From NCBI RefSeq assembly GCF_001435845.1, contig NZ_CM003596.1, positions 62,001 through 126,000 on the forward strand: 64,000 nt of DNA. The letters run 5' to 3'. The translations under genes and the position numbers were made by a program. The notes beneath the pieces were generated by a model that made no database searches, had not been told where the DNA came from, and was given only the letters and a program-made list of their open reading frames with translations. Origin of the DNA: Psychrobacter sp. P11G3. Its GTDB lineage: Bacteria > Pseudomonadota > Gammaproteobacteria > Pseudomonadales > Moraxellaceae. Below, in pieces: positions 34,028-41,076 of this stretch (its first letter is position 1; the number at the start of each line of letters is the position of its first letter).

Positions 34028-36238
34028 TTAAATGACCTCGCGAGTCGTTTGAGTATTTGCCGCATCAATATTTTTAACATCAGTAAAACCATTATGACGT
34101 AGCAAAGCATCGATACTGGCGCTACGACCGCGGAAGTTTTCAAAGTTGGTTTTCGCTGGGAAACTGCCGCCAACAGATAAGATGGACTCACGGAATGCTT
34201 TGCCTGTCGCTGGGTTGAAAATACCGTCTTCTTCAAACTTGCTAAACGCATCAGCTGATAGCAGTTCCGCCCATTTATATGAGTAATAACCTGCAGCATA
34301 ACCACCCGCGAAGATATGACTGAAACCATTAGCAAAACGGTTATAGTCAGGCGTTTGCATAACGGAGATATCATTACGGACAGTATTGAGCGTCTCTAAA
34401 ATACCATCATAATTAAGTGCTGGCGTATGAGCATGAATGAGCAAATCAAATAGAGCAAACTCAATCTGACGTAGCGTTTGCATGCCGCTTTGGAAATTTT
34501 TCACTGCTAATAGTGCATCGAGCTTGTCTTTAGGTAATGGCTCACCAGTCTCAACGTGGCTGCTGATAAGGGCGATGCCTTCAGCGTCCCAAGCCCAATT
34601 TTCCATAAATTGACTAGGAAGCTCGACCGCATCCCATTCAACGCCATTGACACCAGCGACATCGCCCACCGTGACTTGAGTCAATAAATGATGCAAGCCA
34701 TGACCAAACTCGTGGAATAAGGTTAATACTTCATCATGGGTCAATAAACTAGGTTTGCCATCAAGTGCTGGCGTGAAATTACCAACCATGAAGCAAACAG
34801 GCAGCTGCTGATGGTTTTGTTCTTCATAGCTATAGCGAGATTGGAAACCACTCATCCATGCACCGCCACGCTTACCACTACGTGCAAACAAGTCAAAGTA
34901 GAAGCCACCGAGCAAGCGATCATCAGCATCAAATAATTGATAAAAACTCACATCGTCATGCCAGCGAGAGACTGAGTCACTTTCTGCATCTTTATAACTT
35001 TGCTCTTGTACTTTGATACCGTATAGACGCTCAACGATAGTGAATAAGCCATTAATCACTTTGGGTAATGGGAAGTATGGACGAATCTCCTCTTGCGATA
35101 AGCTGAATTCACTTTGTTTTACCTTTTCAGCGATGTAGGCGCTATCCCACGGCTGCAACTCGTCAATGCCATAATCGCTTGCGTATTTCTGTAGCTGTGC
35201 CAAATCTGCTTTGGCAGCAGGGGTTGCTTGCGTTGCTAAGTCACGTAAGAATGTTTCAACTTCTAAAACGCTATCTGCCATCTTAGTCGATAGCGATACT
35301 TCGGCATAATTTGCAAAACCAAGTAGCTTGGCTTTTTGCTCACGTAATGAGAGTATTTGACTCATATTGTCAGCGTTATTTAATGAGTTGCCTTTTGCAT
35401 TGGTATGCGTATCAAACTCAGAGGCGCGTGTGACGTAAGCATGATACAGCGTCTCACGTAGGCTACGATCGTCCGCATGAGTCATGATCGCTAGATATAC
35501 AGGAATATTTAAACTGGCCACATAGTAAGGAGTAGGAAGTGCATCTATATCGGCTTGGCTAAGAGCACCGCTAGCAAGCTCACGCGCTTTGTATTGCTCG
35601 CCTGCATCTGCCAATAGTGCCAGACCGCTCTCTGTTAAACCTTTTAACTGAGAGTCTTCTAAAGGCAGGGAAAATGCTTGCGTCGCATCCAAGATATTGT
35701 CCGAAAAGGTTGCAGACAGGGTAGATAACTCACTTTGGATAGCGGCAAATTTTTCTTGCTCAGCTTGAGGTAATGCAACGCCTGATAATTCAAAGCTACG
35801 TAAAGCCAGTTCGATTGCACGTGCACGAGCAGACTCTAATGTAGCAAAGAAATCTGTGTCATTGACGATAGCTTGATAGCGATTAAACAAAGGCTGATGC
35901 TGTCCAACTCGCGTACCGTAAGCAGATAGTTTTGGTAGCAGTTCATGGTGAACATGACGAATTTCATCATTGCTCATCACGCTATTGAGATGCGACAAAA
36001 TACCCCAACTACGATCTAATGCCAAATTGATATGATCAAAGCTCATCACATCTGCCAAAGCTTGTTCACCGCTTATTTTTTCAGCACTTATTTTTTCAGC
36101 ACTGTCGCTTTCTATCACGGTTAAGGTATCTAAAAAAGCATTGGCAGCGTCAATAGCATCAATCACTTGGTTCTGTAACGTACGCGGCGCAGTGTCGGCA
36201 AAATCGACAAGGCGTAAATCTAAAGGAGAAGATGTCAT
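34028..36238 (-). CDS. prlC: Oligopeptidase A (M3 metallopeptidase)
   Basis: 736 residues from the ATG at 36238 (MTSSPLDLRLVDFADTAPRTLQ). A TTG twelve codons upstream could extend it but is less likely. The zinc site HEFGH is in HDEVLTLFHEFGHGLHHLL, with the third ligand Glu in GVEWDAVELPSQFMENW. It degrades signal peptides and cytosolic oligopeptides. The rest follows the M3A neurolysin-like helical fold. It is somewhat longer than E. coli PrlC (~680), partly from an N-terminal insertion that contains a 15-bp tandem duplication coding EKISA twice. Confidence 0.93.
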   Translation of the reverse strand: MTSSPLDLRLVDFADTAPRTLQNQVIDAIDAANAFLDTLTVIESDSAEKISAEKISGEQALADVMSFDHINLALDRSWGILSHLNSVMSNDEIRHVHHELLPKLSAYGTRVGQHQPLFNRYQAIVNDTDFFATLESARARAIELALRSFELSGVALPQAEQEKFAAIQSELSTLSATFSDNILDATQAFSLPLEDSQLKGLTESGLALLADAGEQYKARELASGALSQADIDALPTPYYVASLNIPVYLAIMTHADDRSLRETLYHAYVTRASEFDTHTNAKGNSLNNADNMSQILSLREQKAKLLGFANYAEVSLSTKMADSVLEVETFLRDLATQATPAAKADLAQLQKYASDYGIDELQPWDSAYIAEKVKQSEFSLSQEEIRPYFPLPKVINGLFTIVERLYGIKVQEQSYKDAESDSVSRWHDDVSFYQLFDADDRLLGGFYFDLFARSGKRGGAWMSGFQSRYSYEEQNHQQLPVCFMVGNFTPALDGKPSLLTHDEVLTLFHEFGHGLHHLLTQVTVGDVAGVNGVEWDAVELPSQFMENWAWDAEGIALISSHVETGEPLPKDKLDALLAVKNFQSGMQTLRQIEFALFDLLIHAHTPALNYDGILETLNTVRNDISVMQTPDYNRFANGFSHIFAGGYAAGYYSYKWAELLSADAFSKFEEDGIFNPATGKAFRESILSVGGSFPAKTNFENFRGRSASIDALLRHNGFTDVKNIDAANTQTTREVI
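36072..36101. repeat. Two tandem 15-bp units inside prlC
   Basis: CTTATTTTTTCAGCA occurs twice in direct succession (36072-36086 and 36087-36101). On the coding strand it gives a repeated Ala-Glu-Lys-Ile-Ser register. The unit length is a multiple of three, so copy-number changes keep the frame. Confidence 0.85.
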
Positions 36239-36728
36239 ATAGGTATCCGATATCAATGAATTATTATTAATCAAAATGAGAAAAGTCTGGCTACTATTGA
36301 AATATACAGTGTGTTCTTATTTTATATATAGATTATATAAAAGATGGGTTCGTTTGGTAAAAATACAACCTAAGCACTTTTATACGATTCAAGTAATTAG
36401 GACAGTGCTAGCAATTTGGAAGTAAATATCGAAATTCTGATACTTAGATTCTACTTTTCAAGATAATTATCTGAATATGTAGTTATGCTCGCTAAGGCAG
36501 TTCTTTAACAATATAGAGTGCTCTACTTACAAAGCGCTATCATTTGCTTGCAAATTAACCCTACAGGGAGTGGGGTATAGCTGTTAGCATCAAGATAATG
36601 GAATTTAAATATTATGCATCGACAGGATGCAAGAAAAACACGGATAGAAATTTCTACACTTATAACAGTATATGAGTGAAGAGATACATAAAGTTAAAAA
36701 TGAACGATAATAAAACAAGGAGCAATAT
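36239..36728. other. Long leader region between prlC and the baeRF gene
   Basis: 490 bp of AT-rich DNA with the divergent promoters of prlC and the baeRF gene. It contains TTCTTTAACAAT at 36501-36512, a close match to the boxA antitermination element of rRNA leaders. I find no consensus promoter pair and no supported ORF. Confidence 0.45.
36501..36512 (+). promoter_or_regulatory. boxA-like element upstream of the baeRF gene
   Basis: TTCTTTAACAAT differs by one base from the TGCTCTTTAACAAT core of E. coli rrn boxA over this span. It lies about 215 bases before the start codon on the sense strand. boxA is bound by NusB-S10. The match could be chance. Confidence 0.3.
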
Positions 36729-37841
36729 ATGAAAGCGACTCTTAAAAGTTTACGTGAAACTAAAGCTAACCCTGCAGTAAGTATCTTTGTTAAAACGCAT
36801 CGTGAACATCCAGCTAATGAGCAAGATCCTATCGCTCTAAAAAACCAATTGAAAGTTGCCGAAGATCGTTTGACGAAAGAATACGATAAACGTACAGCGA
36901 CTACCATTCTAGATAACATTCAAAATAAAATCAGTGAGCTCAATCACAATTATAATCTCGATACATTAGCTATATTTGCTAGTACAGATGATGTGCAAGT
37001 TATTCGTATGCCAATTGATACAATGGAACGTGTTGTGATCTCAGATAGGTTTGCTACGCGTGACTTGGTTCGTGATATGGCAAGTGCGGTTCATTATTAT
37101 ACGGTGGTCTTAACCCGTGACAATGCTCGTTTGATCGAAGCATCTAATGACCGTGTTGTGAGAGAATTCGATAAAGATGACGATGCACAAAACAATATGG
37201 AGAACATTCAGTTCCCTGTCGAAAACAACGGTCTATACACAACAGGTGACGGTGGCTCAGATCGTTCATCAAACAACGAAAGCAGTCACTTAAAAGAATT
37301 CTTTAACCAAGTTGATAAAAGCGTCCAAGAACTCTGGGGCGAGCATAAAATGCCTCTAGTCATAGTTGGTGATGCAAAAAATATTGGCTACTACAAAGAA
37401 GTCTGTGATCGTCCAGATAATATCATCGCTACAGTATCGAATGCCACCAATCTAGAGGATGGTAGTGCACAGCATATTGTCGATAGTGTACAAGAAGCGG
37501 TAGAAGAATATCGTACATCATTACATCATGCTGCTTTGGGTGAAATCGATAAAGCTCGCGGTGCGAATATGTTGCAGACTGATTTGCAGGAAGTGTATCG
37601 CAGTGCTTTCCAAGGGGCTGGCGAGACGCTTTATGTACGCCGTGGTTATATACAATCCGCTAAGATTGACGAGAAAGCTCAGACTCTAAGTCCTGCCAAT
37701 GATGCGACTACAGAAGGCATCACAGACGATGCAATCGGCGAAATCATCGAACACGTCATTCATAATGGCGGCGAAGCTGTATTTATGCCACAAGACATCA
37801 TGGGTGAAGATCAACCAATAGCGTTAGTAACTCGATACTAA
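36729..37841 (+). CDS. eRF1/Pelota-fold protein of the bacterial baeRF family; candidate ribosome-hibernation factor Balon
   Basis: 370 residues with three domains. The N-terminal domain opens with PAVSIFVKTHREHPANEQDP and IALKNQLKVAEDRL, the signature of bacterial archaeo-eukaryotic release-factor homologues (baeRF). The middle domain holds HLKEFFNQVDKSVQELWGEHK and MPLVIVGDAKNIGYYKEV. The C-terminal domain (TEGITDDAIGEIIEHVIHNG, GEAVFMPQDIMG) resembles the L7Ae-like domain 3. Where eRF1 has GGQ, this protein has GDGGS (residues 173-177), so peptide release is unlikely. Balon, described from Psychrobacter urativorans, is a Pelota/eRF1 relative that occupies the ribosomal A site with EF-Tu during cold shock and stationary phase; this gene is a plausible orthologue. 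It has a strong ribosome-binding site (AAGGAGC), is monocistronic, and has its own terminator. Confidence 0.75.
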   Translation: MKATLKSLRETKANPAVSIFVKTHREHPANEQDPIALKNQLKVAEDRLTKEYDKRTATTILDNIQNKISELNHNYNLDTLAIFASTDDVQVIRMPIDTMERVVISDRFATRDLVRDMASAVHYYTVVLTRDNARLIEASNDRVVREFDKDDDAQNNMENIQFPVENNGLYTTGDGGSDRSSNNESSHLKEFFNQVDKSVQELWGEHKMPLVIVGDAKNIGYYKEVCDRPDNIIATVSNATNLEDGSAQHIVDSVQEAVEEYRTSLHHAALGEIDKARGANMLQTDLQEVYRSAFQGAGETLYVRRGYIQSAKIDEKAQTLSPANDATTEGITDDAIGEIIEHVIHNGGEAVFMPQDIMGEDQPIALVTRY

Positions 37842-37925
37842 TCTGACGATGACACCTATACGCGATGTTCATTTATGAGTCAGCCATTTATGAATTAGCC
37901 ATTGATAATACATAGGTGTAATATG

Positions 37926-37960
37926 AGAGCATTGGTTCAATACGAGCCAGTGCTCTTTTT
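37926..37960 (+). terminator. Terminator of the baeRF gene
   Basis: 13-bp stem (AGAGCATTGGTTC / GAGCCAGTGCTCT, two G-T pairs), 5-base loop, then a T5 run. Confidence 0.88.
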
Positions 37961-38049
37961 ATGTCTGTCATTACCATCACTATGGGTGCTATCGTAGCTG
38001 AGCTATTGATCTTTACTCCATAAATAATGAGCGTACAACTAACCAAACT

Positions 38050-38805
38050 ATGACTACCACCTCTTTTGTTTTAACCAGCTACAACATTCACAAAGGCATG
38101 TCACCGCTGAATCGCCAAGTGAAGATGCAAGGTATTGCTCAGGCGCTAGAGTCTGTGGGTTCAGACGTACTGTGTTTGCAAGAAGTGCAAGGCCAAAACC
38201 TTAAACGCAATATGCAATACAACGAGTACCCAGATCAATCGCAGCATGAATGGTTCGGCGAATTTTTAGATTTGCAAAACAGTTACGGTAAAAACTCCGA
38301 ATACGAAAACGGCCACCACGGCAATGCAGTATTGAGCCGCTTTCCGCTAGACCCCAAACACAATGTAAATATTACGGTCAACAAGCTTGAGCAGCGCGGT
38401 GTCTTGCACTGTGAGGTACAGCCTATCGATTGGGAAATGCCAGTTGTGGTGCTGTGCGCACATTTAAATTTATTTGAGCGTGATCGTATCAAGCAGTATC
38501 AAGCGATTAGTGACTATGTTCGAAATGAGATTGCGCCAGAGCAGCCACTTATCTTGGCAGGCGATTTTAACGATTGGAAAAAGATGTCTTGTGACAAACT
38601 GGCGTCAGATCTAGGCATGATAGAAGCGTTCAAGCATTGTCATGGCAAGCTGTTGCCAACCTTTCCCGCAAAACTGCCAGTACTTAGCTTGGATCGTATC
38701 TATGTGCGCAATTTGCTTGTGAAGGATGCTTGGGTACACACTGGAAAACCTTGGTCATCGCTATCAGATCATCTGCCCATTAGCGCAGAGCTGATGCTGC
38801 CTTAA
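38050..38805 (+). CDS. Endonuclease/exonuclease/phosphatase (EEP) family protein
   Basis: 251 residues with the EEP metal-dependent phosphodiesterase motifs in order: TSYNIHKGM (Asn), DVLCLQEVQG (Glu), HGNAVLSRFPL, VVVLCAHLNLFERDR (His), LILAGDFNDWKK (Asp and Asn) and SLSDHLPISAELML (Asp-His). This group is close to bacterial YbhP-like proteins. The substrate could be a nucleic acid or a phospholipid/inositol phosphate and cannot be told from sequence. There is no signal peptide, so it is cytosolic. The ribosome-binding site is poor. Confidence 0.85.
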   Translation: MTTTSFVLTSYNIHKGMSPLNRQVKMQGIAQALESVGSDVLCLQEVQGQNLKRNMQYNEYPDQSQHEWFGEFLDLQNSYGKNSEYENGHHGNAVLSRFPLDPKHNVNITVNKLEQRGVLHCEVQPIDWEMPVVVLCAHLNLFERDRIKQYQAISDYVRNEIAPEQPLILAGDFNDWKKMSCDKLASDLGMIEAFKHCHGKLLPTFPAKLPVLSLDRIYVRNLLVKDAWVHTGKPWSSLSDHLPISAELMLP

Positions 38806-40218: not shown

Positions 40219-41076
40219 ATGACTACCAACAATAAGACCAGCAATGAAAAAACAGATGACCACATTGCTTATGAAACCAAAGTCCGTGAAGAAATAGAAG
40301 CATGGAAGAACCCTGATAAAGGGATTTTGGATAAAACGCTAACAGTGCTTAATACCCCTGTGGTAGCAGCCGGTGATGCGTTAATGGAGGCTCCACAATT
40401 TGGCGATTCTCTAAAAAAAGTAACTGAAGAAACGATTACTGCTTTGAGTGATGCAGCCAATTGGACATTGGACACTCAAGACGTTATTGATAGCTATCAA
40501 GAGATAGCGGATGTTGATAGCTCCTCGATTGCAACACTAGCTGATATTAAACGTCTACCCATTGCGGTTGTAGATAAACAAGTTAAGCTTTTCAAAAGCA
40601 AATATGTTGCGCTAACCAGTGCGCAAGGGGTGACTACAGGGGTTATAGGTTGGGCAGGTATCCCTGCGGATGTCGTTGGACTTATTACAGCTAATCTACG
40701 TGCGATTGGAGAATATGCAACGTACTATGGCTTTGATATCAATGATAAAGGCGAGCAGCTATTTGCTATGTCTTTGTTGGCTGTGGCAACTTCTACCTCT
40801 GTTGAAGAGCGTAAGGCGGCGTTAGATGACACTCATGCGATGATTAAAGATCCAGAAACTCAGGCATTTAATCAGATCAATGAAGAAGTCATGTCTCGTG
40901 TACTGCGTCAGACAGCGACTAAAGTAGCCAATAATATCGTTAAGACAAAAGCGGCGCAAATCATTCCAGCGGTAGGCGCAGTAGTCGCAGGTGGTGTTAA
41001 TGCTAGCTACACTGCCAATGTGTGTGAAGCTGCTTACCAGTGTTATCGTGAGCGTTTTTTAGACCGTTTCGCGTAA
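40219..41076 (+). CDS. EcsC family protein
   Basis: 285 residues. It shows the EcsC layout: an N-terminal amphipathic region (EIEAWKNPDKGILDKTLTVLNTPV), KSKYVALTSAQGVTTGVIGWAGIPADVVGLITANLRAIGEYATYYGFD, then FAMSLLAVATS and a Gly/Ala-rich C-terminal segment (IIPAVGAVVAGGVNASYTANVCEAAYQCYRERFL). EcsC proteins are membrane-associated and of unclear role. An AAAGGGAA site precedes the start. It is convergent with the AlkB-like gene (32-base gap). Confidence 0.85.
   Translation: MTTNNKTSNEKTDDHIAYETKVREEIEAWKNPDKGILDKTLTVLNTPVVAAGDALMEAPQFGDSLKKVTEETITALSDAANWTLDTQDVIDSYQEIADVDSSSIATLADIKRLPIAVVDKQVKLFKSKYVALTSAQGVTTGVIGWAGIPADVVGLITANLRAIGEYATYYGFDINDKGEQLFAMSLLAVATSTSVEERKAALDDTHAMIKDPETQAFNQINEEVMSRVLRQTATKVANNIVKTKAAQIIPAVGAVVAGGVNASYTANVCEAAYQCYRERFLDRFA

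Follow-up and report, generated by a model that had tools for sequence, protein, structure and literature searches.

The balon locus

The window analyzed here is a stretch of 64,000 nucleotides from the genome of Psychrobacter sp. P11G3. It contains, on the forward strand, an open reading frame (36729..37841, +) that runs from an ATG to a stop codon and encodes 370 amino acids, as the initial annotation had described. We assign it as balon (NF052287, AOC03_06830-family ribosome hibernation factor) on the basis of its match to PDB chain 8rd8_B and to the corresponding NCBIfam equivalog. A Shine–Dalgarno sequence, AAGGAG (36717..36722, +), can be read six bases before the ATG. The upstream neighbor is a divergent reading frame for an M3 peptidase with its start at 36274, leaving an intergenic stretch of 454 nt upstream of balon. 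Downstream, a terminator-like hairpin of 14 pairs is followed by a T run (37925..37957, +); it is one of three terminator-like sites across both strands of 36200-38150, where shuffled sequences average 0.9. The divergent neighbor makes the gene monocistronic by layout, in agreement with the earlier description of a gene standing alone with its own terminator. An antisense reading frame occupies 36605-36919 (-). No Rfam family matches at E <= 1 within 36275-38050, and a PADLOC search found no defence families.

The window also holds nusA, infB, rbfA, truB and pnp, as assigned by NCBIfam, and these genes constitute an ordinary bacterial translation cluster. The initial annotation had taken rbfA, pnp and infB as cold-related support. 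They are indeed present in the window, but because the cluster is a general one, this neighborhood is weak evidence and does not support a cold role. A RaiA/HPF gene is present in the same genome, outside the window.

Identity of the protein

A search against all PDB sequences returned a single convincing match, the Balon protein of P. urativorans (8rd8, 8rdv and 8rdw), with an E value of 2.6e-200. The next two matches have E values of 1.2 and 1.8, and the Balon match is not due to chance. The alignment with the published Balon, proposed in the initial annotation as a check, extends from end to end. Residues 1-370 of the window protein align on residues 1-369 of 8rd8_B, without gaps over residues 1-323 and with one extra residue near position 324, and the identity given by the fold search is 80-82%. 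The molecule name that the depositors gave to the P. urativorans chains, "Methyl-accepting chemotaxis protein", is a poor fit.

The family models give the same assignment. The protein scores 520.4 bits against the NF052287 equivalog, for which the cutoff is 330, with residues 5-370 covering positions 1-361 of the 361 in the profile. In Pfam, baeRF family 3 is found at 115.6 bits; families 7 and 6 match more weakly, still above their cutoffs, and families 11 and 8 fall below theirs. A protein search retrieved 222 relatives. Identity to the window protein is 72-97% among the 120 listed, and many of those with a name bear the designation "AOC03_06830 family ribosome hibernation factor". The identification as Balon proposed in the initial annotation is supported by both the full-length match and the equivalog score.

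An AlphaFold2 model was built from a set of 21 relatives, the window protein among them, at 68-92% identity to it. The model is weak, with a mean pLDDT of 60 and a pTM of 0.53, and so gives no independent proof of the domain arrangement. Foldseek, which draws on the sequence as well as on this model, gave the highest ranks to the three chains of P. urativorans Balon. Below them came two chains of Msmeg1130, then the archaeal protein 3vmf and release factor 1 of human and archaeal origin; Pelota first appeared by name with 2qi2 (E 0.027), further Pelota entries being weaker. Structure prediction had likewise been suggested at the outset. It did place the Balon chains at the top, but with a weak model and a TM-score to Balon of about 0.44, and such low TM-scores make the ranking a matter of consistency rather than proof.

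Distribution and gene neighborhood

A second, truer Balon elsewhere in the genome would have spoken against the identification. Searches with the protein, PF18845, NF052287 and PF18849 found only one Balon locus in the P11G3 genome. In a panel of 57 genomes, all 36 from the same genus (P11G3 included) carry one Balon match, which in G032 is cut to residues 1-173 by the end of a contig. The remaining 21 genomes belong to other families of the order, and a single one of them yields a partial match, covering residues 4-142 at E 1.5e-12. Across the family, 115 of 249 genomes, belonging to four genera (g1, g28, g31 and g36), score above the NF052287 cutoff, and three further genomes match below it.

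The neighbors are also shared. Across 75 loci, the divergent M3 peptidase lies upstream in 74, an EEP-family protein lies downstream in 66, and both are present in 65, with the reservation that at L095, L105 and others the fetched DNA ends early or the neighboring gene may sit beyond it. Nine Moraxellaceae loci outside the genus were compared as well; L165 has both neighbors, and L163 has the downstream one without the peptidase. Separately, a 285-residue protein encoded at 40219-41076 (+), which has no NCBIfam match, has a relative downstream of Balon in 17 of the 75 loci. We find no arguments against Balon orthology.

Functional residues and inferred mode of action

The codons for His27 and Pro28 lie at 36807..36812 (+). 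An HP motif at the decoding center is named in PMC10901736, and we infer that it corresponds to this pair. HP is kept in 74 of the 75 sequences, the exception (L090) being misaligned at its start. Among the nine Moraxellaceae loci outside the genus, it is found in three (L160, L161 and L165); four have FP (L158, L159, L162 and L163), L157 has SP, and the distant L164, 22% identical, has RP. The proline is thus constant and the histidine is not, which places a small limit on HP as a diagnostic feature.

The second site is the GDGGS sequence at residues 173-177 (37245..37259, +), which stands where eRF1 has GGQ and contains no glutamine. According to DSSP of the predicted model, in which the pLDDT of this part is below 50, it lies in the middle domain between the third strand (142-146) and a helix at 181-203. 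This is the strand–helix stretch to which PMC6514570 assigns the eRF1 catalytic loop. The initial annotation was right about the position of GDGGS and the missing catalytic glutamine, but as support for Balon the motif is weak, for the loop varies among relatives, including those within the genus, showing other letters or a two-residue deletion. GDGGS is, from the aligned sequences, a variable loop sequence. Such variability fits the view expressed in PMC6514570, where baeRF loops without glutamine are read as non-catalytic. Balon also has a bL27 trap and a beta-hairpin that contacts EF-Tu; the window protein aligns to 8rd8_B without a gap over residues 1-323, and its counterparts of these loops are putative.

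NIKS is found in none of the 84 sequences (the 75 loci and the nine Moraxellaceae loci outside the genus). GGQ is found in two, L070 (at 347) and L157 (at 332), in both cases in the C-terminal part, and a catalytic middle-domain GGQ was not found in the window protein. Two of the 84 sequences, L090 and L096, are not cleanly readable. In L096 (Psychrobacter sp. JCM 18901), the reading frame of Balon is interrupted, with 37 stops in the frame used. This may be a sequencing error, since one source labels the protein as low quality.

Several reported properties of Balon bear on its mode of action. According to PMC10901736, ice shock brings the protein into the A site of ribosomes, whether these are vacant or translating, and practically every ribosome carries it in late stationary phase; RaiA and EF-Tu(GDP) accompany it. 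The same source describes ribosome-bound structures for P. urativorans Balon. It also reports that P. arcticus lacking Balon grows slightly faster in rich medium and shows a first-day growth defect after three months of dormancy.

An alternative is that the window protein acts like Pelota, without catalysis, and splits stalled ribosomes or rescues them instead of causing their hibernation. The absence of the catalytic glutamine and the distant fold similarity to 2qi2 and weaker Pelota entries are compatible with this, and a Dom34-like role is named as one possibility in PMC6514570. However, the protein is 80-82% identical to one that sits with RaiA on practically all stationary-phase ribosomes, and Balon is said in PMC10901736 to lack Pelota's loop A; we therefore regard a Pelota-like role as very improbable. 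Even less credible is an active baeRF, a peptidyl hydrolase or rescue release factor that frees stalled peptides: the protein does belong to the baeRF families of the aeRF1 superfamily, a few of which, notably family 10, keep the catalytic glutamine and could be active (PMC6514570), but its middle-domain loop has no GGQ and differs in sequence and length among members of the genus, such loops are read as inactive in that source, and the nascent peptide is retained on Balon-bound ribosomes (PMC10901736).

It is almost certain that the window gene is the Balon orthologue, whose product would park ribosomes in cold shock or stationary phase. By orthology, the window protein would act on ribosomes as P. 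urativorans Balon does. Under cold shock or in stationary phase, it would enter the ribosomal A site, where the N-terminal HP motif would hold the decoding center and leave the mRNA untouched. The glutamine-less loop of the middle domain would lie at the peptidyl-transferase center without hydrolysis of the peptidyl-tRNA, and the C-terminal domain would contact EF-Tu(GDP). Empty and translating ribosomes would both be parked in this manner, the empty ones with RaiA. Given the full-length Balon match, the equivalog score, the genus-wide presence, the shared neighbors and the conserved HP pair, the protein is nothing unusual for its genus; it has been described before and adds no new mechanism.

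Promoter region and proposed regulation

When the upstream regions of the 75 loci were aligned with that of the window, a block at about 36524-36600 was found to be far better conserved than its flanks. It contains a direct repeat, TTACAAA-N14-TTGCAAA (36527..36554, +), whose two boxes are 21 bp apart and which is a putative activator site. It also contains an extended -10 element, TGTTAGCAT (36582..36590, +). This element would place the transcript start near 36597, so that an untranslated leader of about 132 nt is probable.

The spacing within the module is rigid. The repeat occurs without mismatch in 67 of the 75 loci and with one mismatch in another; in these 68 loci, TGnTA follows it at exactly 27 nt in 66 and the stricter TGnTAnnWT in 57, all of these counts being inflated by strain relatedness. 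How far the boxes stand from the start codon varies, between 131 and 360 nt. Among 32 rows hand-picked for variety, ATCATTT between the boxes and TTGnTA after them are nearly constant, and neither motif played any part in the picking.

Seven loci have no repeat at one mismatch or fewer (L073, L092, L093, L095, L099, L103 and L104). In L103, the repeat is present with a spacer that is one base shorter. L073 is apparently the same assembly as G017, as Balon lies at the same contig position in both, and the G017 boxes are 512 nt upstream, beyond the 500-nt cut. In L092 (P. pasteurii), L093 (P. phenylpyruvicus), L095 (a MAG) and L104 (P. piechaudii), another shared stretch, with GACAAGAACCGACAA, replaces the repeat; TATAG and TTGnTAATAT are kept. 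A change of regulator is possible in these four. A second conserved block, at 36335-36375, lies close to where the divergent M3 peptidase gene begins, has TATAAT on the minus strand, and is probably the promoter of that gene.

A fuller pattern, TTACAAA-N5-ATCATTT-N-CTTGCAAA with at most two mismatches, was found in 29 of the 36 same-genus genomes and in none of the 21 others; a reversed control gave no match in the same genomes. Of its 30 occurrences, 29 are on the Balon strand, 151-512 nt ahead of the gene, the remaining one being a two-mismatch match elsewhere in G001. Seven same-genus genomes, G028 and G035 among them, lack the pattern at two mismatches.

We also searched with a sequence model of the promoter. 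In the P11G3 genome, where 150 of 1504 candidates were scored, there was one strong match (E 1.8e-19), the next standing at 0.42. Ten further genomes (150 candidates scored each) gave five matches at E <=1.5e-13, all before Balon and each in a different one of the six same-genus genomes. G028 is among these five and has a second, weak match at 0.006. In the sixth, G035, no match was better than 0.02, and in the four genomes of other genera none was better than 0.004. With one mismatch allowed, the short form TTRCAAA-N14-TTRCAAA was set aside as not specific, given 19 places in the P11G3 genome versus 11 for the reversed control. The DNA upstream of raiA/hpf has no copy of the repeat, either by eye or in the short-form and model searches, and a search for plasmid copies of the promoter region gave no match.

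By eye, the usual -35 element is lacking before balon, and a sigma-70 scan gives no site there. We therefore read the promoter as activator-dependent, and expression of balon is probably switched on by an activator at the conserved direct repeat. Among the genomes searched, the fuller pattern is restricted to the genus and lies nearly always before Balon, which suggests a dedicated activator. The leader between the module and the gene changes freely, and the fuller module occurs essentially once per genome. We tentatively propose that Psychrobacter Balon may be run by a dedicated activator acting through the rigid module of two TTRCAAA boxes, an idea to which we give somewhat less than even chances. 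BfmR of Acinetobacter was considered as a candidate regulator. If the proposal holds, a single-target regulator would put ribosome hibernation under its own, separate control in these bacteria.

An RNA thermosensor or structured leader was rejected as a conserved feature, the mean z-score of 65 distinct leaders being -0.84. The leader in the window folds better than its shuffles (z -3.5). Thirteen of the 65 fall below z -2 (60 shuffles each), and ten of these belong to strains with a Balon 96-99% identical to that of the window.

The accessible part of PMC10901736 gives the locations of Balon genes and the time at which the protein acts, and does not treat its switch-on in Psychrobacter. A literature search outside subscription papers found no prior description of a Balon promoter in this genus. 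The rigid promoter module is thus the only detail for which no earlier description was found, and it is a modest regulatory lead. A conserved, gene-specific operator would offer a direct handle on the regulator and on the signal that starts Balon hibernation.

Relation to known systems

The predicted model of the window protein finds archaeal and eukaryotic eRF1 and Pelota in the fold search, and Balon has the three-domain layout and A-site binding in common with them (PMC10901736). Unlike them, the window protein has neither NIKS nor a middle-domain GGQ. The mycobacterial Balon homologues Msmeg1130 and Rv2629 (8v9j, 8v9l and 8v9k) are also found by the fold search, but at only 10-16% identity, and the mycobacterial model NF052288 fails with 27.6 bits against a cutoff of 480. 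The low identity and the score far below the cutoff place the window protein in another subfamily.

The closest known system is P. urativorans Balon (AOC03_06830; 8rd8, 8rdv and 8rdw), which the window protein resembles over its full length, in the HP motif and in the GDGGS loop. The two differ by substitutions and by the single extra residue near 324, none of which is seen to touch a named feature. The Psychrobacter sp. P11G3 protein confirms the hibernation system described for its P. urativorans counterpart.
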